This document shows positions 2,572-20,534 of a DNA stretch of 20,534 nt, piece after piece. The notes below the pieces were generated by a model, which saw nothing but the letters and a program-made list of their open reading frames with translations, was not told the DNA's origin and ran no database searches. Where the stretch lies: the IMG/VR virus record IMGVR_UViG_3300009151_008366, positions 1 to 20,534 of that record; one strand, 5' to 3'. The position numbers were made by a program, and so were the translations under genes. This DNA comes from a virus. How positions within the stretch are numbered: position 1 is the stretch's first letter; each line of letters starts with the position of its first letter.

Positions 2572-2601
2572 GCTTGTAATTAGAAGAATCTTTATTAAAG
2601 T

Positions 2602-10235: not shown

Positions 10236-11292
10236 ATGATGTTTGACATAGCTTATACAATTCTAAACATTTGTCAAGTACTTCCTTTTTTGTAGCTCGG
10301 GTTTCTACGTGTTCTACAAATTCTTGAAATGCTGTCTCAATATCAATTGATAATTTTTTAACATCGTTAGTACTAGTCTGAGCAGCATCTAATATATTAA
10401 ATTCAGTTCTACACTGCAAAGGATTATATTGAGTCAATTTAGACACAAGTAAGTCGAGAGTCAGAGCATCCAATTTAGTATCAACATATATACTAATAAT
10501 ATTGTCTTTGATAATTGCTGGAAGATCTTTGTATTGTTTCTGAATAAGTTCAGAAATTTTCAAGCGATAGTGTTTAGGAGTGACGGTGTTTTCAACAAAC
10601 TTGATGTTATTTAAATTATCTAAATCTATAATAGATACTCCTTTTAATTGACCTCGGTCTCCAAAGTCCATTTCGTAAGGAGCTCCAGTATATAATATAT
10701 ATTTGTTATCATACATTCTGCAATCTCTAGTATGAAAATGTCCAGTAACAATTGCATCAGCTTTTTCTAATAAAGAAGAAGGAGACTCTCCATGTTCGCA
10801 AATTCTGTTTGCTGTCATTTTAAAATTAATAATGTCAAAATGCCCTACTAACATATCAACTTTTTTTAACTCCTTCACGTTAGTTTTCCATGGACAAAAT
10901 GTTATTAACTTTTCTCCAGCTTTAATAGTAGTTGGAGTCGTGTAAACAAATATATTATCTCGCGCAAGAATTTCTACGGAATTTACTTCAACAGTAGAAG
11001 ATAAAAAAGCATCATGATTGCCTGGAAGTATATGAATTTGATAATCTTTAAGAATGTCAAAAAATCTTTTAGCCGCATGAAGTGTATTGACTCCTATTTC
11101 GTGTCTGTCATGAAATACATCACCAGCAAAAAAGATAGTATCTAATTTGTTATCTATCATTACAGAGTTAATCCACGATGCAACATCAATACAAATGTTG
11201 TGCCACGTTTGGGAATTTTGATGAACTCCCAAATGTAAATCAGAAAAAAATAATACTTTATTGTTTTTAGGATTAATCTGCAATTGAATCAT
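10228..11292 (-). CDS. 47: Recombination nuclease subunit, SbcD/Mre11-like (T4 gp47)
   Basis: 354 residues from the chosen ATG, close to the T4 gp47 length. It is a metal-dependent phosphoesterase that works with gp46 in processing DNA ends. Mre11 motifs in order: DLHLG (18-22), GDVFHD (57-62), GNHD (91-94), GHFD (150-153) and GHFHTR (184-189). All metal ligands are present. An open frame extends upstream to an ATG at 11322, but those ten extra residues lie before the first strand of the fold; the start at 11292 puts the N-terminus at MIQLQINPKN and leaves a 20-base overlap with the sigma factor gene. The two genes must be translated from overlapping frames, which suggests coupling. The C-terminal 150 residues are the capping and gp46-binding part, without recognised motifs. 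Confidence 0.95.
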   Translation of the reverse strand: MIQLQINPKNNKVLFFSDLHLGVHQNSQTWHNICIDVASWINSVMIDNKLDTIFFAGDVFHDRHEIGVNTLHAAKRFFDILKDYQIHILPGNHDAFLSSTVEVNSVEILARDNIFVYTTPTTIKAGEKLITFCPWKTNVKELKKVDMLVGHFDIINFKMTANRICEHGESPSSLLEKADAIVTGHFHTRDCRMYDNKYILYTGAPYEMDFGDRGQLKGVSIIDLDNLNNIKFVENTVTPKHYRLKISELIQKQYKDLPAIIKDNIISIYVDTKLDALTLDLLVSKLTQYNPLQCRTEFNILDAAQTSTNDVKKLSIDIETAFQEFVEHVETRATKKEVLDKCLELYKLCQTSYE

Positions 11293-11764
11293 GTTGATTA
11301 GAATCATCGTTTGAATAACCAATTATATTTTTTCTTGCAGGAATATAACCACTACATACATTGTCTTCGTATATCTCTTGTTGATATCGCTTTAGTGTAT
11401 CAAAATCTTTTTTTGATTTTTTAATACAATTTTGAAAAGCATGATAAGCCACTTTTGTAAAATATGAAAATGGATTGTAACCTTCTCCACATTTAAACCT
11501 CTTTCTCCTCAGAGCAGTCATCATTTTAACAATAGCATCTCCTTGCATTTCAGTCTTAAAGCTGTATGAATAAAAATTTCTAGCAAGACCCAGGCGCACA
11601 GCAATCATTTGTATCATTTCAGCTAACTTGTCCGATATAGTATCTGTATTTGAGGCGTAATATTCAATTATTAGAGTCTCCATTTCAATTGGATCAATAT
11701 ACACGTCTTTTAACTCTTCTTTGGTTCTTCTAACTCTTTTTTGAGGATTTGTACTCTCAGTCAT
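11273..11764 (-). CDS. 55: Late transcription sigma factor, T4 gp55-like
   Basis: 163 residues, near the 185 of T4 gp55. gp55 is a small sigma-family protein that directs host RNA polymerase to late promoters with the box TATAAATA and needs no -35 element. The central block (residues 57-125) aligns with gp55 region 2: RLGLARNFYSYSFKTEM, then MMTALRRKRF, YNPFSYFTKVAYHAFQ and NCIKKSKKD, matching the T4 order of F-x-x-Y-x-x-x-W/F-K-x-E-M, G-I-x-A, N-P-x-A-Y-x-x-x-x-x-x-x-A-F and I-K-K. The N-terminus is basic and the C-terminus acidic. Its presence gives meaning to the five NATAAATA boxes in the right half of the window. It ends 20 bases inside the gp47-like gene. Confidence 0.9.
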   Translation of the reverse strand: MTESTNPQKRVRRTKEELKDVYIDPIEMETLIIEYYASNTDTISDKLAEMIQMIAVRLGLARNFYSYSFKTEMQGDAIVKMMTALRRKRFKCGEGYNPFSYFTKVAYHAFQNCIKKSKKDFDTLKRYQQEIYEDNVCSGYIPARKNIIGYSNDDSNQHDSIAD

Positions 11765-11790: not shown

Positions 11791-13233
11791 TTATTTTTCA
11801 ACAAGCTTTGTTGTAGATAGTGGTATATTTTCAGATTGATATAATTTTTTTCTTTCCTCGTAATGTTTGTATCCGTAAGTTAAACACACATCTGCAATGT
11901 CAAATATAGTTGCAATCTCTTTTGTATGATGTAAACGTAAACTTCTCCCAATTGATTGGATGATCTTAATACGGGCTTTTCCAATAGAAGCAAAAACGAT
12001 ATTATGAAGATTCTTAATAGAAATACCAGTCGAAAAAATATTTGATATTGCAATGCATACAACGTTTGTAGATTCTTCCATAATTTCTTTCATTTTTTCT
12101 CGTTCTTCAACTTCAACAGAACCTTGAATAAAATAAACTTGTTTGTCCGTATAAGATTTAAAATATTGCAAGAGATACTCTCCGTGAACAATGCGATCAA
12201 CTAGTACCAAAGTGTTAGTTTTTAATTTATTGACTATTTTAGCCATAACGGAATTTCTATACTCGTTAGTATGAAGCCATTCAGTCTCTTCGGTGTATCC
12301 CGCAGTAGGTTCGGCCATAGAGGGTCTGGTAAACTCCGGAATATTTTTATATTCTATTTCGAGTCCAACCACCTTAACATTAGAAATAAATTTGTCTTGT
12401 CTTAAATCTATAGAAAGTTTTTCATAAATTACTGGTCCAAAAATTCTATTAATAGACCATTTATCAAAATTGTTCTCAGGTAAAGAGCCAGTAAACCCAA
12501 ATTTATGTTTAGCTTTTAATCCTTTAACAAGCTTAGCTATTTTATCTGCGGTTGAAATTTTGTGGACTTCGTCGCATACAACTACATTAAATTTATCAAG
12601 TACAGAAATATTTTGAGTTTTAGAAAGCAAAATTTGATTATTTGCAATTACAATTGAGGTAGATTGATATTCATGACTTCCCGTCCATCTCGAAATGAGA
12701 TTAGATTCAATTCCATATTCTATAAAATCTTTATACGTCTGCTCTACGAGTTGAATGTTTGGTACTAAAATTAGCACGTTATACTTTTTCTGCAAAACTA
12801 CAGTGGAAGCAATTAAAGCAATAGTAAGAGTTTTGCCAGCTGAAGTGGGTAGAACAATTACTCCATAGCCGTTAAGAAGAGCTTTTGTAGCAGAATCTAA
12901 TTGATAATCCCTAGGTGTAAGACTCAGCTGCTCGGGTTCAATAGCTATACGACCAGGAAATAACCTATCATTTAGTTCCTTATTAATTTTAATCTGTAAA
13001 GAAGGAAAGTTGAAAAGAATATTATCACATATAACTTTAAAAAAAGGAGCGTCAAAATGTCCTTTGTTTGTAATAGCATATTTTCGAACGGGCATGTTAG
13101 ATCTACCTGTTCGACGCCGCATAAAAACAAGAGCTTTATCTTCAACAGAAAACAGCTCTCTAATCTGATTTAAATATTCAGAAACAATTTGTGGTTTTCT
13201 TGCCACAGTATCATAAACAAACTCAACAATCAT
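11791..13233 (-). CDS. uvsW: DNA/RNA helicase UvsW-like (superfamily 2)
   Basis: 480 residues, about the size of T4 UvsW. UvsW unwinds R-loops and branched DNA and in T4 switches replication from origin to recombination-dependent start. Motifs: an N-terminal domain of about 100 residues before the helicase core, a Q-like PRDYQ (107-111), Walker A LPTSAGKT (128-135), motif Ia LILVPNIQ (154-161), motif II DEVH (221-224), motif III TGS (248-250) and motif VI QSIGRSLRLH (426-435). Nothing is missing. The ATG overlaps the stop of the uvsY-like gene (TAATG), so the pair is coupled as in the T4 uvsY-uvsW area. No Shine-Dalgarno sequence. Confidence 0.95.
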   Translation of the reverse strand: MIVEFVYDTVARKPQIVSEYLNQIRELFSVEDKALVFMRRRTGRSNMPVRKYAITNKGHFDAPFFKVICDNILFNFPSLQIKINKELNDRLFPGRIAIEPEQLSLTPRDYQLDSATKALLNGYGVIVLPTSAGKTLTIALIASTVVLQKKYNVLILVPNIQLVEQTYKDFIEYGIESNLISRWTGSHEYQSTSIVIANNQILLSKTQNISVLDKFNVVVCDEVHKISTADKIAKLVKGLKAKHKFGFTGSLPENNFDKWSINRIFGPVIYEKLSIDLRQDKFISNVKVVGLEIEYKNIPEFTRPSMAEPTAGYTEETEWLHTNEYRNSVMAKIVNKLKTNTLVLVDRIVHGEYLLQYFKSYTDKQVYFIQGSVEVEEREKMKEIMEESTNVVCIAISNIFSTGISIKNLHNIVFASIGKARIKIIQSIGRSLRLHHTKEIATIFDIADVCLTYGYKHYEERKKLYQSENIPLSTTKLVEK

Positions 13234-13646: not shown

Positions 13647-14045
13647 TGTTTAAACATAATACTCTATAAAAGAAAAAGATCTACTCAAAATTTCCCCTTT
13701 ATAAGCTCTTTAAAGTACTTCCGGAAATTCAGATCGAAGGAGGGAGGTCCCCCATTATTGGGAAAACCTCCGATCTTTGATATTCCGTATAAAACGAGTC
13801 TCAGTCGGGTTAACAAGCTTCAAAAAATCCTATGATTAATATGCCCCCTCGGTTGTCCTATAAGGGCTGGCTTGAGCGGTCCTGGTAGAATACCAGACAA
13901 CGGTCACGTAATTAACGCACTTCGAGAAATGTTGTTGATTTATGAATCCCAGGCCCTGTTTATCTATCTTACTACTAAGCCCCGCTATGACGCTTTGGGT
14001 GGGTCTACCTGTGATGTATTAAATGTCTTTTATAAATCATTTTTG
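13647..14045. other. 399-base gene-free region, GC-rich, palindromic and strongly foldable
   Basis: No convincing gene. Direct count: 140 of the 300 bases from 13721 to 14020 are G or C, against 14 of 60 in 13621-13680. A long hairpin pairs AGATCG (13731-13736) with CGATCT (13771-13776), continues with GAGG/CCTC and ends in a small hairpin CCCA-TTAT-TGGG (13751-13762). A second hairpin is CTGGTA-GAA-TACCAG (13882-13896), enclosed by GTTGT (13852-13856) pairing with ACAAC (13897-13901). CCCT/AGGG pairing is possible at 13846-13866. No poly-T tract follows any hairpin on either strand. The region directly precedes the uvsY-like gene on the minus strand, so it would be the leader of a 13 kb operon, a separate RNA or a replication origin. 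T4 has an origin at uvsY, which makes the last option worth noting. I recognise no known RNA family. Confidence 0.55.
13708..13726. repeat. Three overlapping perfect 8-base palindromes
   Basis: CTTTAAAG (13708-13715), AAGTACTT (13713-13720) and TTCCGGAA (13719-13726) run one into the next, about 60-80 bases upstream of the uvsY-like start and just before the long hairpin at 13731-13776. Such a row could be a set of dimeric protein binding sites or part of an origin. Palindromic 8-mers occur by chance, but three abutting ones are unusual. Confidence 0.5.
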
Positions 14046-14459
14046 TCAACTAACAATCCGATTGTTTATGTTGCCTTTTTGTCCTCCGAGATAAACCATC
14101 AATTGTTTGTAAGATTTAATGGCCTGTTCAATTTCAGGATGTGAGGCTTTTAAAGCAGCAATATCAGCCTGTCCTAATTTTTGAATATCTGCTTCAAATT
14201 CAGCAATTTCTGCTTTTGCTTTTTCCAGAAAGCTATTAAAAATGGATTTTTGTTGAGATTTGGCATAAGCCTGGCCAGCTGTTTGCCCTGAAGGAGTAAT
14301 ACCAGCTCCAAACTTATTAGCAACGCCCGTAGCTGTATTTTGAATGCCTTGCTTGAGTCCAGCCTTAATTCCAGATGCCTGTCCCTTTAAACGATCCCAA
14401 ATTCCTTCATTTACCTCATCATAAGCTGATTCTAATAAAAGTTGATCCTTATTCTTCAT
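14046..14459 (-). CDS. Small late structural-type protein with capsid-targeting-like leader
   Basis: 137 residues of unknown function. The first ten residues (MKNKDQLLLE) end in L-L-E, fitting the (Leu/Ile)-x-Glu site of the T4-type prohead protease. A Gly/Ala/Gln-rich segment follows (about 26-75), then a helical, charged C-terminal half (FLEKAKAEIAEFEADIQK) likely to form a coiled coil. The gene has its own late promoter box 6 bases before the ATG and stands back to back with the plus-strand gene at 14502. It ends beside the GC-rich untranslated region. A packaged internal or core protein is the best guess. Confidence 0.7.
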   Translation of the reverse strand: MKNKDQLLLESAYDEVNEGIWDRLKGQASGIKAGLKQGIQNTATGVANKFGAGITPSGQTAGQAYAKSQQKSIFNSFLEKAKAEIAEFEADIQKLGQADIAALKASHPEIEQAIKSYKQLMVYLGGQKGNINNRIVS

Positions 14460-14465
14460 GGAATT

Positions 14466-14473
14466 TATTTATC
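14466..14473 (-). promoter_or_regulatory. T4-like late promoter box for the gene at 14046-14459
   Basis: On the minus strand the box reads GATAAATA, seven of eight bases matching T4 TATAAATA. Six bases separate it from the ATG at 14459. Using the T4 spacing, transcription would start at about the base before the start codon, giving a leaderless message. It forms a divergent pair with the box at 14489. Confidence 0.7.
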
Positions 14474-14488
14474 AAATTTCTTTTTTTT

Positions 14489-14496
14489 ATTAAATA
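14489..14496 (+). promoter_or_regulatory. T4-like late promoter box for the genes at 14502-15892
   Basis: ATTAAATA, six of eight matches to TATAAATA, with the core TAAATA intact and exactly five bases before the ATG at 14502. A T-rich tract (14480-14488) lies just upstream. The spacing equals that at 17417, 19896 and 19932, which is why I call it despite the weaker match. Confidence 0.62.
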
Positions 14497-14501
14497 ATTA
14501 C

Positions 14502-14717
14502 ATGGAGTTTCAAAAATTAGTTGAACGAGTTCTTAAAGAAGACGTAGTTGCAGGAGGAGCAGGTTCTGTTTTTGGTTCAAACGTAGGAGCTACAGCAACA
14601 ACGTTTAGCGGAGATACGTATGCTCCTGGAGACACTAGAACTCCAAAAAGTTTATATGGAGGAGTGCTTACTCGAGGGGGTTTGAAAAAACGTAAAGGAT
14701 ATAGAAAGAAATATTAA
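14502..14717 (+). CDS. Small basic late protein with capsid-targeting-like leader
   Basis: 71 residues from the ATG at 14502; an open frame extends further upstream but crosses the promoter and lacks similarity. Residues 1-13 (MEFQKLVERVLKE) match the leader of the next gene at 9 of 13 positions and end in L-K-E, a predicted prohead protease site. After the cut the protein is Gly/Ala/Thr-rich (DVVAGGAGSVFGSNVGA), then GDTYAPGDTRTPKSLYGG, then a strongly basic tail (KKRKGYRKKY). The basic end suggests binding to packaged DNA. It has its own late box five bases before the ATG. Confidence 0.78.
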   Translation: MEFQKLVERVLKEDVVAGGAGSVFGSNVGATATTFSGDTYAPGDTRTPKSLYGGVLTRGGLKKRKGYRKKY

Positions 14718-14725
14718 TTATTTTT

Positions 14726-15055
14726 ATGGAATTTCAAGAATTGGTAGAGTTAGTTATACAAGAAAATACCACAGAAACATCCCTCAAAGGAAAGTCTTCT
14801 GGTCATACCGTACTAGGAGGATTGGTAACTAATACAGGTAAGTTTAACACCATTTCCCATCATTCTAATCAACATGGAGATCATTGGGGACACAATAGAG
14901 CGAGTCATGTAAATTATAGTCACCATGAACCCCACGATGATATGTCTCAACACAAACCTCATCAAAACAAAATGGGAAAACATACAAGAGGCAATTCTTT
15001 AAAATCTTCTCGGACCAGTAAAGGTTACAAATCAAAATTTAGTAAAAAACGCTAA
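14726..15055 (+). CDS. Histidine-rich basic late protein, paralogue leader of the preceding gene
   Basis: 109 residues. The leader MEFQELVELVIQE (1-13) is nearly the same as that of the gene at 14502 and ends in I-Q-E. The mature part is unrelated: 13 histidines, mostly between residues 45 and 87 in pairs such as HH and GDHWGH, followed by a Ser/Lys/Arg tail (TSKGYKSKFSKKR). The His-rich part could bind metal ions; the tail could bind DNA. It has no late box of its own and lies 8 bases after the preceding stop, so it is presumably cotranscribed. I do not recognise the family. Confidence 0.75.
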   Translation: MEFQELVELVIQENTTETSLKGKSSGHTVLGGLVTNTGKFNTISHHSNQHGDHWGHNRASHVNYSHHEPHDDMSQHKPHQNKMGKHTRGNSLKSSRTSKGYKSKFSKKR

Positions 15056-15056
15056 C

Positions 15057-15476
15057 ATGGACTTAGGACACTGGCAATTGATAAATGGACTAGAATATAA
15101 AGAAGAGGCATTTGGTTTTGTTTATGAGATCATTAACAACGCGTTAACGGAACCCAAGAGATACATAGGAAAGAAACAGTGTGTTGCTAGAATTAAACGC
15201 AAACCCTTAAAAGGTAAAACTCGAAACAGAATAGATCAAAAACAATCTGACTGGAAAACATATACTGGATCTTCAAAAGAGCTTAATGAAGATATTGCCA
15301 AGTACGGAAAAGAAAACTTTAGCTTTATGATTTTAGAGTGGTGTAATTCTAAATTTGAGCTAGGATATAAAGAAATAAAGCTACAACTGCTAAACGACGT
15401 ACTTTTAAAAGAGTGTTACTATAACGGAATTGTAAACTGTCGCCTTGGCCGTCCTCCTAAGAATTTTAAATTATGA
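15057..15476 (+). CDS. GIY-YIG-type putative endonuclease
   Basis: 139 residues. GIY-YIG core: FVYEI (21-25) and YIGKK (36-40), then DWKTYTGSS (65-73), YGKENFSFMILEWC (83-96) and a glutamate in LLKECYYN (117-123) in the place of the catalytic Glu. A basic loop (KRKPLKGKTRNRIDQKQ, 47-63) interrupts the core. No DNA-binding repeat domain follows, unlike free-standing homing endonucleases, so it may be a phage nuclease with a house role, for example in DNA packaging or repair. Its ATG is one base after the previous stop. The next gene overlaps its stop by ATGA. The active role is not proven. Confidence 0.75.
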   Translation: MDLGHWQLINGLEYKEEAFGFVYEIINNALTEPKRYIGKKQCVARIKRKPLKGKTRNRIDQKQSDWKTYTGSSKELNEDIAKYGKENFSFMILEWCNSKFELGYKEIKLQLLNDVLLKECYYNGIVNCRLGRPPKNFKL

Positions 15477-15892
15477 CAAAAGTGTTTCCAAAGTCTAGAA
15501 TTTGTGTAATTGATATTTATCCCTCTTTTGAAAAAGGGCTGAAACTAGCTACGGATTTTGCTTTAAAGCATAGTATACATTTAAATAGTGCTGACGGAAG
15601 AAGAATTATTCTGAGCTTTTGCTTAAAAAGCATAGAAGCTACATACAGCACAACTCAGAGTACCTTTCCAAAAGTACTCTGTATGTCCAAAAAATCTATA
15701 AATCAAAAAGTTGGTAACTTTATTGATAACTATTTTGCAGGCATAATGGAATACGTTCCAATGCCTTATTGTGGCAAATTTGATTTGAGTTCTCCAGATC
15801 TGGAAACTGCTGCTGAAAACAGTTTAAAGAAACAGAAAACTCAAAAAAAATTTACTAACCTTATTTCAAGGCTAAAGATTAAGCCTAACTAA
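15473..15892 (+). CDS. Protein of unknown function
   Basis: 139 residues, not recognised. It starts in the ATGA overlap with the GIY-YIG gene and is the last gene of the plus-strand late run. The first half contains KSRICVIDIYPSFEKGLKLATDF and a DGRRIIL segment; the C-terminus is basic (KKQKTQKKFTN and LKIKPN). There are no clear membrane segments or metal motifs. Its stop TAA overlaps, tail to tail, the TAG that ends the reading frame at 15889-16077 on the other strand. Position suggests a virion assembly or packaging factor, but nothing in the sequence tells which. Confidence 0.7.
   Translation: MTKVFPKSRICVIDIYPSFEKGLKLATDFALKHSIHLNSADGRRIILSFCLKSIEATYSTTQSTFPKVLCMSKKSINQKVGNFIDNYFAGIMEYVPMPYCGKFDLSSPDLETAAENSLKKQKTQKKFTNLISRLKIKPN
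15869..15886. other. Short hairpin at a tail-to-tail gene junction
   Basis: AGGCT (15869-15873) pairs with AGCCT (15882-15886) around an eight-base loop, just inside the end of the plus-strand gene and just after the minus-strand stop at 15889. It could help end transcription from both sides, but no run of T follows on either strand, so it is only a weak candidate. Confidence 0.25.
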
Positions 15893-16077
15893 AACGGTTG
15901 TTCTTCTCCGTCTAGTACTACATTTGATGGATCAATTAGAGTTCCATCTTCTTCTCCGTAACCGTTTCCATTGTCTTTGATGTAGAGCCTCATTTGAGGA
16001 ATCCACATATCCGGAGGTCCTTCAAGACGAATTACGGCAGGACAATCTTCTTTTGGAAAAAATGCCCCTGTGTTTTT
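15889..16077 (-). pseudogene. In-frame tail of the P-loop ATPase gene, cut off by one TAA
   Basis: Directly after the TAA at 16078-16080 the same frame stays open for 62 codons and ends with TAG (15889-15891). It encodes FFPKEDCPAVIRLEG, then MRLYIKDNGNGYGEED and ends GEEQPF. The codon use resembles the neighbours and its end abuts the convergent gene exactly, as expected for real coding DNA. Phage ATPases of this type, as I remember them, carry such a C-terminal part (D-x-P-A-x-I-x-x-x-G and L-Y-x-x-x-x-G-x-x-x-G-E-E). It has no good start of its own; the first ATG is at codon 24. I read it as the detached C-terminus of the upstream gene, through a substitution creating TAA or through readthrough. 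Confidence 0.65.
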
Positions 16078-16560
16078 TTAATAAGATTCTACCAAAGAAT
16101 CAAAGATATTATCAATCTCTTCTCTAAAAACAGGATCTAATTCTCTTCCTTCTTTTGCTGTAATAGGAATTTCTTTTCGAGCTGGCACATAAAAAATTAC
16201 ATCAATATATTTCAATGAAATAGCAGCAATGTCTTTGCAATCAATAATGAATTCTGTTGTAAATCCAGTAGTATCTTTTGCATAATGCCAAAGCGAATAA
16301 GCAATGTTATCTACAGTACATCTATCAAGAATAATATGCTTATTATCTGAAGCTGTAGCTAGCTGAACTTCATCTACTAGAGCATTAAGAATTGCTTTCT
16401 GAGAAGTTTTGTCTCCTTCTTTATTGATATTAAGATTTTGTTCCTTAATAATATCTCTATATGTTTTTTCTGGCCTTTTATACATAGGCCAGGCTTTAAT
16501 GAACTCTTCAATAAGAGTAGACTTACCGGTGTTTTGGGCTCCAATTAGGGCAATGCGCAT
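16078..16560 (-). CDS. NadR-like P-loop ATPase/kinase, probably truncated
   Basis: 160 residues. Walker A is GAQNTGKST (7-15). LDRCTVDNIAYSLW (about 78-91) supplies the DR motif of NadR and thymidylate-kinase-like enzymes, and the lid-like region has GRELDPVFREEIDNIF (about 138-153). It should phosphorylate a nucleotide, nucleoside or related small molecule; the substrate cannot be read. The frame is interrupted by TAA after SLVESY, and a further 62 codons follow in the same frame, so a full protein would be 223 residues. A run of seven A (16073-16079) makes up the end of the stop and the bases after it; slippage there could not remove the stop. It lies 34 bases after queE and has no Shine-Dalgarno sequence. 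Confidence 0.8.
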   Translation of the reverse strand: MRIALIGAQNTGKSTLIEEFIKAWPMYKRPEKTYRDIIKEQNLNINKEGDKTSQKAILNALVDEVQLATASDNKHIILDRCTVDNIAYSLWHYAKDTTGFTTEFIIDCKDIAAISLKYIDVIFYVPARKEIPITAKEGRELDPVFREEIDNIFDSLVESY

Positions 16561-16594
16561 AAAATATAATTAAAACAAATTTAGAATATATCAA

Positions 16595-17353
16595 CTAAAC
16601 AGACAGCGCTTTGTCCCAAATTAGCAAGTGTAATCGAGGACTAAAGTTAACATGCATTGCCTTTGCATATTCCACTACAGCAGGAGCTCTTTGAATATGT
16701 TCTTCTCTAGATCCACAGCAAGGCATGAACCAAATGCGGTTAAGAGGAACATTAATTCCATTTGTATCTTTTACATACTTTCTCCAAATTTCATCAATAT
16801 CTTCTGAACTGGTGATAACAAATTTAAAACCAGAGTTATGTTCAACATGCCACTTAAGGACTTCTGGCTTATATGTCTTATCTTCAGGATCTCCATTAGT
16901 GGTCAATTTTGGAGACGTAGTGAATGTAGCATTAAATTCTGTTACCCAACGCTCATCTGGCATAAGAGTTGCATTTGTTTCAAAATCAATTCTAGGAAGA
17001 AATCCGTAATGAATTACAAAAGCTTCTATAAACTTAATAAGTTGCTTTTGGCTAACAAAAGGTTCTCCTCCCGTTAGCTTAAAAATTGTGTTATTCTTGA
17101 GGTGATAAATGTAATTATTTTTTTCCATTAACTGAAAAATTTCAGCAAATGTCATTTTGTTTTTTACTGACCAAGAAATATAAGAATCACATCCATTAGG
17201 ACTATCTACAGAAGCAAAATTTTTACAGCTCAAATTACACATAGACATCCTCATGAAGACGGAAGGCTGTCCTACGTATTCTCCTTCCCCTTCAATAGTT
17301 AGGAAGAGGAAATCATTACTAAGAAATAGATGTTCATTATTAATATCAGTCAT
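16595..17353 (-). CDS. queE: 7-carboxy-7-deazaguanine synthase-like radical SAM enzyme QueE
   Basis: 252 residues. QueE converts 6-carboxytetrahydropterin (the QueD product) to 7-carboxy-7-deazaguanine, the ring contraction step towards preQ0. Seen: TIEGEGEYVGQPSVFMRMSMCNL, the QueE N-terminal signature (from 19), a cysteine region with C39, C43 and C55, the glycine motif LTGGEP (93-98), and a later TTSPKL. The first two cysteines have the radical SAM C-x3-C spacing, but the expected third position (46) is Phe and the next cysteine is at 55. This differs from the standard C-x3-C-x2-C. I think related phage proteins share the layout, so it may still bind an Fe-S cluster. Upstream are A/T-rich bases without a Shine-Dalgarno sequence; a homing endonuclease gene separates it from queD. 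Confidence 0.88.
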   Translation of the reverse strand: MTDINNEHLFLSNDFLFLTIEGEGEYVGQPSVFMRMSMCNLSCKNFASVDSPNGCDSYISWSVKNKMTFAEIFQLMEKNNYIYHLKNNTIFKLTGGEPFVSQKQLIKFIEAFVIHYGFLPRIDFETNATLMPDERWVTEFNATFTTSPKLTTNGDPEDKTYKPEVLKWHVEHNSGFKFVITSSEDIDEIWRKYVKDTNGINVPLNRIWFMPCCGSREEHIQRAPAVVEYAKAMHVNFSPRLHLLIWDKALSV

Positions 17354-17416
17354 AATTTAAATCACTTTACTGTAAAATGCAAAAAATACAACATCAAAAC
17401 AAAAATATACATTTAA

Positions 17417-17424
17417 GATAAATA
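17417..17424 (+). promoter_or_regulatory. T4-like late promoter box for the homing endonuclease
   Basis: GATAAATA, seven of eight matches to TATAAATA, five bases before the ATG at 17430. It lies in the 76-base divergent gap between queE and the endonuclease gene. Late control of a homing endonuclease has a known parallel in T4 I-TevI, whose gene has a late promoter. Confidence 0.7.
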
Positions 17425-17429
17425 ATAAT

Positions 17430-18089
17430 ATGACATGTAACGCTTTTGTGTATTTATGGTACGATTCCTTTGCTAAAAGATTTTATGTAGGTTCACATGC
17501 TGGCTCTGAAAATGATGGATATGTATGCTCGAGTAAAGTAATGCTTAGAGCTTACAAAAAACGTCCCAATTGTTTTAAACGTAGAATTTTAAAACGTTGT
17601 TCTAGACATGAACAACATACATGGGAGCAGTATTATTTAAATATGATAAAAGATTCTGAACTTTTTTATAAGAATAAAAAATATTACAACATTAAAAGAA
17701 TTGCTGCAGGAGGAGATACAACAGCAAATTTACCAAATCGAGAAGAAGTGATTAAACGTAGATATGGCAAAAAGCACAGCGATGCTGTTAAATTAGCAAT
17801 TAAAAATAGAACTAAAGAAAAGAAAAACCTCCACAAAGAAAGGCATTATAGGTCATTAATGTCTACATTAAAAGATCCTTCTTATACTAACTATCAAGAC
17901 AAACCATACAATGTATTTGTAAATGGAATTTTTTATAAAACATATAAGAATAAAAAACAGCACGCTGAAGAAATTGGTTGCAGTTTAGTTACTATTGTTA
18001 AATTCATTAAACAACGACAATGGATCATCAAACAAAAACGTAGCCATCCTTTTAATGTTGGGGACATGCTTACGTTTGAGTTTGTTTAA
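17430..18089 (+). CDS. GIY-YIG homing endonuclease with NUMOD-type DNA-binding repeats
   Basis: 219 residues. The nuclease domain begins FVYLWYD (6-12) and RFYVGSH (17-23), the GIY-YIG pair, followed by FKRRILKRC with the conserved Arg and TWEQYYL with the catalytic Glu. GKKHSDAVKLAIKNR has the look of a NUMOD3 minor-groove helix, and a C-terminal part (VFVNGIFYKTYKNKKQHAEEIGCSLVTIVKFI) resembles the IENR1/NUMOD1 helix-turn-helix module. It is a free-standing mobile endonuclease gene: alone on the plus strand between queE and queD, with its own late box. It probably cuts the same gap in related phages that lack it. The frame is intact. Confidence 0.88.
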   Translation: MTCNAFVYLWYDSFAKRFYVGSHAGSENDGYVCSSKVMLRAYKKRPNCFKRRILKRCSRHEQHTWEQYYLNMIKDSELFYKNKKYYNIKRIAAGGDTTANLPNREEVIKRRYGKKHSDAVKLAIKNRTKEKKNLHKERHYRSLMSTLKDPSYTNYQDKPYNVFVNGIFYKTYKNKKQHAEEIGCSLVTIVKFIKQRQWIIKQKRSHPFNVGDMLTFEFV

Positions 18090-18133
18090 GAGGGGAATGA
18101 TTAAATTTTATCTGCTCCTACAAAACATTGGCA

Positions 18134-18577
18134 TCATTCTTCATACGTAGCGCTGTTTTCTAAATGTTCCCAAACTTCTACTTTTTCAATCCAACAGCGA
18201 TCTCCGTAGTTATCAGCTAGAAATTTTTTTGCTGCATTGAAACACCATTCTGCCGTTTTTTCAATTCCTACTCCTTCTTTCATTATTCTTAAATCACAAC
18301 CTCCAGCTGTATTAAGTTCTTCAAACATTCCTCTCAAAGGATCATCAGCTGCAATGCAAAGAGTGTGATCAAATTGATCTTGTAAAATTTTTTTAAGACC
18401 TTTCAATCCTCCAAAATCTACAGCCCAATTTTTTTCATCTAATTCAGAACAACCAAACCAGAATTTAGCTTTAAGTTGATATCCATGAATTTTAGAACAA
18501 TGAGAATGTTTGGCTTTCCATTGACGAAAAGCACAAGAACCAAGTTCAATAATTTTTGTTGAAATATATGTACCCAT
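18134..18577 (-). CDS. queD: 6-carboxytetrahydropterin synthase-like protein QueD
   Basis: 147 residues of the PTPS/QueD family. QueD turns dihydroneopterin triphosphate into 6-carboxytetrahydropterin, which QueE uses. Seen: KHSHCSKIHGY (23-33) with the putative catalytic Cys27, WAVDFGGLK (51-59), DHT (70-72) with the Asp-His pair, GVGIEKTAEW (102-111) in place of the usual PT-x-E-N, and a final EVWEH (134-138). The zinc motif normally reads C-x3-H-G-H; here the second His is Tyr33, and H24 or H26 must supply another ligand. I think other phage QueD proteins share HGY. It starts one base after the stop of the 34-residue basic gene. Confidence 0.88.
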   Translation of the reverse strand: MGTYISTKIIELGSCAFRQWKAKHSHCSKIHGYQLKAKFWFGCSELDEKNWAVDFGGLKGLKKILQDQFDHTLCIAADDPLRGMFEELNTAGGCDLRIMKEGVGIEKTAEWCFNAAKKFLADNYGDRCWIEKVEVWEHLENSATYEE

Positions 18578-18578
18578 G

Positions 18579-18683
18579 TTACTTTTTACGTGGCTTAATT
18601 GTCTTAGTAATAGTTACCGTTTTACGAATGGTTACGTTTCCGCTCTTTACTGTTTTTACGTTGCGTTTAGTTAATTTTGACAT
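18579..18683 (-). CDS. 34-residue basic microprotein
   Basis: ATG at 18683, TAA ending at 18579. 34 residues, about a third of them Lys or Arg, with an alternating Thr/Val/Ile-Lys pattern (VTIRKTVTITKTIKPRKK, 17-34) and no acidic residue. It fits exactly between two genes: its ATG lies three bases after the stop of the unknown gene at 18687, and its stop is one base before the queD ATG. This tight packing is the main support. It might bind nucleic acid or a host protein. No Shine-Dalgarno sequence is seen and no family is recognised. Confidence 0.6.
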   Translation of the reverse strand: MSKLTKRNVKTVKSGNVTIRKTVTITKTIKPRKK

Positions 18684-18686
18684 ATG

Positions 18687-18968
18687 TTAGATTTGATTAA
18701 ACGAAATAATTTCTAGATTATCAATAAATTCCCTCAGAACGTCCAAAGACAGAGAATCTTCATAGTTATCTTCTTTCAAAAACTGAATATCGTCAAGCTT
18801 AATCTCTGGACTAACTTGCTTTAAATCTTTAGCTAGATTAAACAGCTCTTTTTGATATTCTTCGTTTGTTGTAGAAACAATATTGACGGAACAAGAAAAT
18901 AAGAGGCCAGAAATAATAGTGGCCAATTGCTTTTCAGTTAGATTGATGGTTATGTTTTGTGTAGACAT
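18687..18968 (-). CDS. Small acidic protein of unknown function
   Basis: 93 residues, not recognised. Its start is MSTQNITINLTEKQLATIISG; the rest is acidic and helical (EEYQKELFNLAKDLKQ and LREFIDNLEII). The region just before the ATG, 18969-18992, folds into a hairpin whose stem abuts the start codon. It lies in the minus-strand run between the tandem zinc-motif gene and the microprotein. There is no late box. A small regulatory or inhibitor protein is possible, but nothing shows it. Confidence 0.65.
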   Translation of the reverse strand: MSTQNITINLTEKQLATIISGLLFSCSVNIVSTTNEEYQKELFNLAKDLKQVSPEIKLDDIQFLKEDNYEDSLSLDVLREFIDNLEIISFNQI

Positions 18969-18992
18969 ACGGAAAGCTTACTTTGCTTCCGT
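18969..18992 (-). promoter_or_regulatory. Hairpin abutting the start codon of the gene at 18687-18968
   Basis: On the minus strand ACGGAAGC pairs with GCTTTCCGT, eight base pairs with one bulged base and a seven-base loop. The stem ends at the base before the ATG. It begins 6 bases after the preceding stop. It could slow translation, protect an mRNA end or reduce readthrough; no T-run follows, so it is unlikely to be a simple terminator. Confidence 0.45.
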
Positions 18993-18998
18993 TATATG

Positions 18999-19619
18999 TC
19001 AAGCTTGTATGAGCTTTTTTACATCCTCTAATGGCAGTCCGTCTTGTTGAGCTTCGTCTAATGTTTTGTATAGCTCATTAATAATGGTATCTACTTTATC
19101 TTGATACATCAAAACTTTTTTATAATGCTCAATATTTTCATTAATAGGAACAGATAGTTTTTCTAAAGAATTACCAGCATCCATTAATTCCGTTTTAGCT
19201 CCAAGATATTTTTTAAGTTTTAAGATAGTTCGAGTAAATGATGAATAAGCTATTTGTTCTTGTTCTGTAATTGGATTTTTAATCTTATTTCCTCGTTCAT
19301 CAATTATTCCCAACTCATAGCACTGAAAATCTTTATATTCTTTTTTAAGTTCTTTTAATAATATTGTATTATCTAAAAAACTTTGTACAGATTCTTTATA
19401 CATATTATTATATACTCCTCCGTGGATATGTAAATTGCTAGTTGGATTTAACTTACATCCTTTGCCATAATCAGGAGACCCACAATAAGAGCATTTTGTA
19501 GAATCGTCCGGATGAAAATGTACTCCATGCGGTCCGTAACGGCAACCTTTACCGTGATCTGTTGAACCGCAAAACGTGCATCGGTTTTGTTGGGTTTTAT
19601 TTTTGTTGGTTGGCTGCAT
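18999..19619 (-). CDS. Protein with two tandem zinc-binding CCCH-type motifs and a helical C-terminus
   Basis: 206 residues. Two copies of one motif lie 29 residues apart: C14-C17-C26-H34-H36 and C43-C46-C55-H64-H66. Both contain CGS, YGKGC or HGKGC and end H-x-H, so each probably binds one zinc ion. From about residue 70 the protein is helical and charged, ending in a coiled segment (MYQDKVDTIINELYKTLDEAQ). Similar double motifs occur, as I recall, in unnamed proteins of other large phages. The start overlaps the upstream Pro/Gln-rich gene by 23 bases in another frame. Role unknown; nucleic acid binding or virion assembly are plausible. Confidence 0.75.
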   Translation of the reverse strand: MQPTNKNKTQQNRCTFCGSTDHGKGCRYGPHGVHFHPDDSTKCSYCGSPDYGKGCKLNPTSNLHIHGGVYNNMYKESVQSFLDNTILLKELKKEYKDFQCYELGIIDERGNKIKNPITEQEQIAYSSFTRTILKLKKYLGAKTELMDAGNSLEKLSVPINENIEHYKKVLMYQDKVDTIINELYKTLDEAQQDGLPLEDVKKLIQA

Positions 19620-19890
19620 TTTGCTGTTGAGCTGTCAATAGTTGCTGCAAAGCTGTAATTGCTTTTATGTGGTCTTGGTTATTAGCAGCATGTTTTGTTA
19701 AAGTTTCAAACGCCTTTGCTAATTCTGGATCCGGTTGCTGAGGTTGTCCAGACTGATTGGGTTGAGCGGGCTGCTGGCCGGGAACGGGAGTTGCTGCAGG
19801 AGTTCCTGGTTGAGCTGGCTGTCCTTGAGTAGGAGCTGTTACCATTTCTTTGAGAATACCTTTACAAATTGCATCAAATGTCTTCGTCAT
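19597..19890 (-). CDS. Pro/Gln-rich late protein with capsid-targeting-like leader
   Basis: 97 residues from the ATG at 19890. A longer open frame begins at 20025, but it would cross the promoter palindrome and the divergent gene, while this ATG lies five bases after a late box. The leader MTKTFDAICKGILKE (1-15) ends in L-K-E, a predicted prohead protease site. Residues 17-55 are Pro, Gln, Gly and Ala-rich linker, then a short helix and a Gln/Ala-rich tail (LLTAQQQNAANQQK). It is likely a flexible packaged or capsid protein. The downstream tandem zinc-motif gene starts 23 bases before its stop. Confidence 0.75.
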   Translation of the reverse strand: MTKTFDAICKGILKEMVTAPTQGQPAQPGTPAATPVPGQQPAQPNQSGQPQQPDPELAKAFETLTKHAANNQDHIKAITALQQLLTAQQQNAANQQK

Positions 19891-19895
19891 ACTCT

Positions 19896-19903
19896 TATTT
19901 ATG
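19896..19903 (-). promoter_or_regulatory. T4-like late promoter box for the gene at 19597-19890
   Basis: CATAAATA on the minus strand, seven of eight matches to the T4 late box, five bases before the ATG at 19890. T4 spacing places the transcript start at the A of the ATG, so the message would be leaderless. Confidence 0.78.
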
Positions 19904-19931
19904 GTTTCTTTTGAATTTCTCTGCTTAAAAC

Positions 19932-19939
19932 CATAAATA
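19932..19939 (+). promoter_or_regulatory. T4-like late promoter box for the gene starting at 19945
   Basis: CATAAATA, seven of eight matches, five bases before the ATG at 19945. It is the mirror image of the box at 19896-19903, with identical flanking AAAC upstream. Confidence 0.78.
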
Positions 19940-19944
19940 ACATT

Positions 19945-20534
19945 ATGATTGATTTTGAATGTATTGTTGAAAATATTTTGACAGAAGCTGAAACTACTGA
20001 GTCTAATCCTGTTTCCAATCAACAAACCCAGCAGCCGTCTAATCCTACCGAAGAAAACAAAAACGAGGACAAAAACAAAGATAAAGACGAAGTTGTGGGG
20101 AACGCTATATCAAATTTTTTAATTAATGATCCTTCTAATCCATACAATAAATTGATGTCAATTTGGACAAAGAGCTTTGGGCCCAAAGGATATACTATGT
20201 GTACAAAAGACGAGTTAAATTCTATATGTTATCAAGTCTCTTATGGATCAACTCGAGGTACAAAAGCAGCTGAAAATTTTCCCAGAATTGAAAGCAATTA
20301 TCCTTTGTTGGATCTTTGTTCCCAATTACATCAACAAGCGTTTAAAGGAAAGACTAAACCAGATTTTACGTTAGCGGTTAAAATTGTCGACAGTTTTATT
20401 AAAAAACTACAAATTCAAATTGATAAAAACAAAGGCAACATGAAACCTATGGATTATGTTGCGTCAGATCCATGGGCCCAGAGTGTAAAACAATCAGCCC
20501 TAGCTAAAGTGCAAGGAGAATTAGGAAAATTGAG
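19945..20534 (+). CDS. Late structural-type protein with capsid-targeting-like leader, C-terminus outside the window
   Basis: The first 196 residues of a protein that runs off the window. MIDFECIVENILTE (1-14) ends in L-T-E, a predicted prohead protease site. A Pro/Gln/Glu/Lys-rich linker follows (about 15-48, with KNEDKNKDKDE), then a folded helical part containing DPSNPYNKLMSIWTKSFG and, later, DYVASDPWAQS. Leader, linker and late promoter all resemble those of its divergent partner at 19597. I do not recognise the folded part. A virion or core protein is likely. Confidence 0.8.
   Translation, partial: MIDFECIVENILTEAETTESNPVSNQQTQQPSNPTEENKNEDKNKDKDEVVGNAISNFLINDPSNPYNKLMSIWTKSFGPKGYTMCTKDELNSICYQVSYGSTRGTKAAENFPRIESNYPLLDLCSQLHQQAFKGKTKPDFTLAVKIVDSFIKKLQIQIDKNKGNMKPMDYVASDPWAQSVKQSALAKVQGELGKL

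Follow-up and report, generated by a model that had tools for sequence, protein, structure and literature searches.

Late Boxes in the Window

The window, meaning here the whole 20.5-kb stretch of DNA that was analysed (20,534 nucleotides), is an IMG/VR virus record of a T4-like phage with 32% G+C. Its minus strand carries the genes to the left of 14459, and from 14459 rightwards lie five genes with a late box upstream. A gp46-like nuclease and homing-endonuclease-like genes are also encoded in the window, together with the following features.

11273..11764, minus strand: gp55-like late sigma (phrog_234 'late sigma transcription factor', E 1.8e-17), presumed to be the reader of the late boxes
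11791-13233, minus strand: UvsW homolog
14466..14473, minus strand: late box GATAAATA, spacer AATTCC, 6 bases to the ATG of 14459(-)
14489..14496, plus strand: late box ATTAAATA, spacer ATTAC, 5 bases to the ATG of 14502(+)
17417..17424, plus strand: late box GATAAATA, spacer ATAAT, 5 bases to the ATG of 17430(+), a homing-endonuclease-like gene (phrog_314)
19896..19903, minus strand: late box CATAAATA, spacer AGAGT, 5 bases to the ATG of 19890(-)
19932..19939, plus strand: late box CATAAATA, spacer ACATT, 5 bases to the ATG of 19945(+)
2577..2584, minus strand: weak late-box variant CTAATTA, 5 bases to the ATG of 2571(-)
14713..14720, plus strand: weak late-box variant TTAATTA, 5 bases to the ATG of 14726(+)
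16567..16574, minus strand: weak late-box variant TTAATTA, 6 bases to the ATG of 16560(-)

A sequence-only reading of this DNA had placed five boxes before five gene starts and a gp55-like sigma in the same window. The match to phrog_234 confirmed the sigma gene and all five boxes are present in the sequence, but two spacers had been swapped: 14459(-) has 6 bases rather than 5 and 19945(+) has 5 rather than 6, while the other three are 5 as claimed. The statement that no box precedes the other genes holds for the strict word but not for the weak variants, which stand before 14726(+), 2571(-) and 16560(-). In relatives these variants likewise peak at 5-6 bases, and the orthologs of 2571(-) in four related records and contigs (G006, L031, L007 and G012) have strict boxes at a spacing of 5 or 6. 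The spacing is also 5 in the L006 ortholog of 19890(-) and in the L027 and L035 orthologs of 19945(+).

The word [AT]TAAATA occurs at most 40 bases upstream of 5 of the 28 gene starts in a hand-made list for the window, in all five cases at a spacing of 5 or 6. Under a first-order Markov null, 0.125 occurrences were expected at these 28 starts, and five were reached in none of 20,000 simulations. A placement test on the five boxes gave P ~3e-11.

Divergent late-gene pairs with starts 26-54 bases apart were observed in the window (14459/14502 and 19890/19945) and in the Pelagibacter phage HTVC008M (18916/18943); each gene of a pair has its own abutted box, on opposite strands.

Spacing Is Conserved in Related Genomes

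Using the gp55 of the window as a query, we found 33 loci in viral contigs, most of them 76-84% identical. They mark a large clade of uncultured T4-like phages. The promoter of 14502 could be followed through the window and 20 relatives, whose proteins are 48-80% identical: in 21 of 21 copies, the spacer between [AT]TAA[AGT]TA and the same ATG is exactly 5 bases long. The letters of the spacer vary, whereas five of the seven columns of the box do not. No box at 5-6 bases was seen for the orthologs of 15057 and 15473, the genes downstream, which fits a single operon headed by 14502.

Eleven related records were taken whole or nearly so, with mechanical gene calls. In G001 (217 kb), ATAAATA stands 5-6 bases before an ATG 22 times, against a mean of 2.05 for permuted words; the highest permuted word reached 9 and can overlap the box in register. 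G004 and the more distant G002 each have 14 such occurrences (permuted-word means of 0.65 and 1.55, respectively), and in all three genomes ATAAATA is almost absent at 21-40 bases. The peak in G005 is mainly due to TTAAATA. No spacing peak was seen in G007 and no boxes in G013.

We then ranked all 7-mers at all spacings de novo, with no motif assumed. Among 1,322 distinct starts, ATAAATA at spacing 5 was the top position-enriched 7-mer, occurring at 44 starts against a background of 0.58; the same peak was seen for its variants TTAAATA, CTAAATA, ATAAGTA and TTAATTA. The degenerate box [ACGT]TAA[AGT]TA was found 3, 10, 5, 3 and 5 times at spacings 0-4 (26 in all, near background), 137 times at spacing 5 and 77 times at spacing 6, which gives the distribution a sharp lower edge. 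Counts at spacings 7-10 were 34, 20, 28 and 11, and between 15 and 30 each spacing had about 4. These pooled counts include orthologs and are thus non-independent, a problem from which the single-genome counts are free.

Comparison with Cultured Phages

The T4-type late promoters of T4, KVP40 and the cyanophages (the gp55/gp33/gp45 system) have in common with those described here the NATAAATA box, a gp55-like sigma and structural genes downstream. They differ in spacing. Boxes in T4 and the cyanophages are mostly 12-40 bases from the start codon, with room for a leader and a Shine-Dalgarno (SD) sequence, whereas those of the clade lie at 5-10 bases with a peak at 5. The same program placed T4 boxes 12-35 bases from the ATG, with none at 5-10; the boxes of Syn9 and P-SSM2 fall mostly at 20-39 bases and those of CP30A and KVP40 mostly at 17-43. 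A plain pattern scan of 14 cultured phages was set aside in favour of these gene-aware counts, because it takes no account of genes and overstates the spacing-5 matches in T4 and CP30A.

The cultured marine phage HTVC008M has eight ATAAATA words at exactly 5 bases, plus CTAAATA variants. In the stretch checked, its deposited annotation has the spacing-5 ATG at 7 of 7 such genes (deposited starts 6280, 7562, 11972, 16007(-), 18916(-), 18943 and 19456). Its proteins are distantly related to those of the clade, and its spacing-5 genes lie in a genome where 45% of genes bear a strict SD, so that abutted promoters mark a subset of genes. HTVC008M is therefore a cleaner case for a separate late mode. 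Rhizobium phage RHph_I1_18 is mixed, with four boxes at 5-6 bases and ten at 21-40.

Megablast of the window's right half found no match among cultured phages, and the TerL of G001 is at most 37% identical to those of the cultured phages listed. In a host search of GTDB genomes, gp55 gave no match and TerL gave matches of 27-42% in mixed MAGs.

Predicted Transcription Start and Shine-Dalgarno Sequences

In T4, transcription starts about one helical turn downstream of the late TATA box (PMC2988020). If the box spans -13 to -6, +1 falls on the sixth base past it, and this base is a purine at 20 of 26 boxes in T4 and 39 of 48 in the cyanophages (a C at 1 and 0 boxes, respectively). At spacing 5 in the clade it is the A of the ATG. 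Just before the ATG, 68 of 80 strict spacing-5 cases have a pyrimidine, versus 520 of 941 unboxed genes (P 6e-8). Judging from base composition, the spacing-5 genes would thus have the usual start pattern of a pyrimidine at -1 and a purine at +1. Genes with spacings 6-10 likewise often have a pyrimidine before the ATG. At spacing 6 the A of the ATG is one base further on, the seventh, and the sixth is mostly a pyrimidine; a start displaced by one base could still fall on this A. Purines make up 80% and 75% of the sixth bases at spacings 7 and 8, respectively, which predicts leaders of 2-3 nt. The +1 signature is weak over clade boxes with spacings of 8-30 (30 purines out of 53).

Strict SD sequences precede 4-8% of clade genes, compared with a shuffled expectation of 3-5%, versus 55% of T4 genes and 45% of HTVC008M genes. 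None was seen before boxed genes. At spacing 5 the start codon is ATG in 61 cases and GTG or TTG in 3, and in this preference for AUG, as in the lack of an SD, the boxed genes resemble known leaderless mRNAs. Since SD sequences are scarce at all genes of the clade, their lack does not distinguish late genes there.

Genes behind the Boxes

In the relatives, boxes at 5-10 bases precede, among other genes, homologs of gp13, gp15, gp18 (sheath), gp19 (tube) and gp20 (portal). Three hallmarks of T4-type late promoters are found together: an 8-bp box (TATAAATA/NATAAATA), a gp55-family sigma and a box before virion genes. Not all late genes would be leaderless, as boxes at 7-10 bases predict leaders of 1-5 nt. 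The box of the prohead protease gene gp21 lies at 13-15 bases, and the major capsid gene is located within an operon after other head genes and has a longer leader, with SD-like words (AGGAGG in G002, the weaker AAAGGA/AAGGA in G004 and G001).

The genome-wide count of box-to-ATG spacing that the sequence-only reading had suggested as a check agrees with it, as the 5-6 base peak is sharp in relatives and absent from T4. Its proposal that promoter and start codon form one leaderless unit is supported by this peak but needs narrowing, given the late genes with predicted leaders. The predicted lack of SD sequences at late genes was likewise correct, as they are rare there, but they are rare at all genes of the clade.

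Small proteins with an N-terminus like MEFQKLVERVLKED are often encoded by boxed late genes (14502, 14726, 19890(-) and 19945 in the window, and many in G001). A crude pattern for this N-terminus was found in 22 of 155 boxed genes versus 19 of 669 other genes. The N-terminus resembles the capsid-targeting sequence of T4.

Leaderless Late mRNAs as the Probable Explanation

Leaderless late mRNA made from abutted gp55 promoters is the best explanation of these data, and we consider it probable. The boxes would act as T4-type late promoters for host RNA polymerase equipped with the phage gp55 sigma, and +1 would be the A of the start codon (spacers of 5 and 6) or a position 1-5 bases before it (spacers of 7-10). 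These genes would be expressed late. Their mRNAs would start with AUG or very close to it, and ribosomes able to recognise a 5'-terminal AUG would translate them as leaderless messages. As almost no gene in the lineage has an SD, a late leader would lack a ribosome-binding signal anyway. A second, leadered promoter is possible upstream of any boxed gene.

The main rival is that the boxes are late promoters at which polymerase starts at least one base off the T4 position, giving ultra-short leaders or starts within the spacer. The tail of boxes at 7-10 bases and the purines at the sixth base at spacings 7 and 8 would suit such leaders; for the main peak, however, the hard edge at 5, the pyrimidine at -1 and the A of the ATG at +1 fit a leader of zero length, and we regard this rival as unlikely. 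Much less plausible is a role of the box as an A/U-rich translation enhancer or standby element in longer mRNAs from other promoters. Another ribosome signal would be useful in a clade that lacks SD sequences at all genes, but the same word is the late promoter of T4 and the cyanophages, where it lies 12-40 bases upstream, and a gp55 gene is present. Moreover, no such peak is seen for permuted A/T words of the same composition, and the genes inside the 14502 operon have no box.

The starts were called mechanically from sequence, and the annotated ATGs might be wrong, with true starts downstream and normal leaders. We consider this highly improbable, as N-termini are conserved from the ATG in the 21 copies of 14502, the deposited HTVC008M annotation has spacing-5 ATGs at the seven genes checked, and with the same caller the T4 boxes fall at normal distances. 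Chance would be helped by the A+T-rich DNA of the window (only 32% G+C), yet it can practically be dismissed, being refuted by the simulations, the permuted words, the 7-mer ranking, the 21/21 conservation and the spacing edge.

Leaderless mRNAs are known from mycobacteria and archaea, where, as in the clade, the promoter core lies a few bases before the ATG, AUG is nearly always the start codon and an SD is missing; the mRNA of lambda cI is a further example. The layout in the clade differs in being tied to a phage sigma and to one class of viral genes, with a leaderless status that is predicted. This architecture of a T4-type late promoter is new, as a search of the available literature for leaderless T4-type late mRNAs found no earlier description. 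T4, a textbook case of phage gene control, has late boxes with enough room behind them for a leader and a ribosome-binding site. If abutted gp55 promoters do yield leaderless mRNAs, leaders are dispensable for much of virion production. The fixed signature of box, 5-6 bases and ATG would also offer a way to recognise late genes in phages that have not been cultured. In a survey of pelagimyophages, the prediction of late promoters failed (PMC7029224), which abutted promoters might explain.

Ribosomal Protein bS21

The largest relatives and HTVC008M encode the ribosomal protein bS21.

G001:216525-216686, bS21
G002:134233-134376, bS21
G003:182325-182483, bS21
G006:10290-10451, bS21
HTVC008M:91237-91392, bS21

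No bS21 was found in the six T4-like phages tested (T4, Syn9, P-SSM2, KVP40, CP30A and RHph_I1_18) or in the other clade records, most of which are fragments. RHph_I1_18 thus has partial abutment without bS21. The co-occurrence of bS21 with abutted promoters is suggestive only, as it concerns few genomes and the counts ignore phylogeny. In freshwater large phages, which likewise carry bS21, one study found the protein's gene transcribed with late structural genes and proposed that bS21 favours phage mRNAs late in infection; the sections consulted propose no leaderless mechanism (PMC9723584). One could speculate about a coupled switch, in which gp55 polymerase would make leaderless mRNAs and phage bS21 would alter the host 30S subunit to prefer a 5'-terminal AUG, although we find this rather doubtful. 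Phages with abutted promoters would offer a concrete test bed for the role of phage bS21.

A Conserved Non-Coding Element and Other Observations

A non-coding element of ~340 nt adjoins the 14502 ortholog and is 70-94% identical in more than 20 related contigs.

Window 13690-14050: conserved non-coding element
L013:7665-8049, L006:7691-8028 and others: the same element in related contigs

No Rfam family matched the element. Its consensus fold has 50 pairs, 16 of them with compensatory changes, and both strands fold better than shuffled columns. Judged by this modelling, it looks like an undescribed structured phage RNA. G001 also encodes a tmRNA with a tag ending in ELAA and a tRNA cluster (L055:4603-5036, L055:1105-7047).
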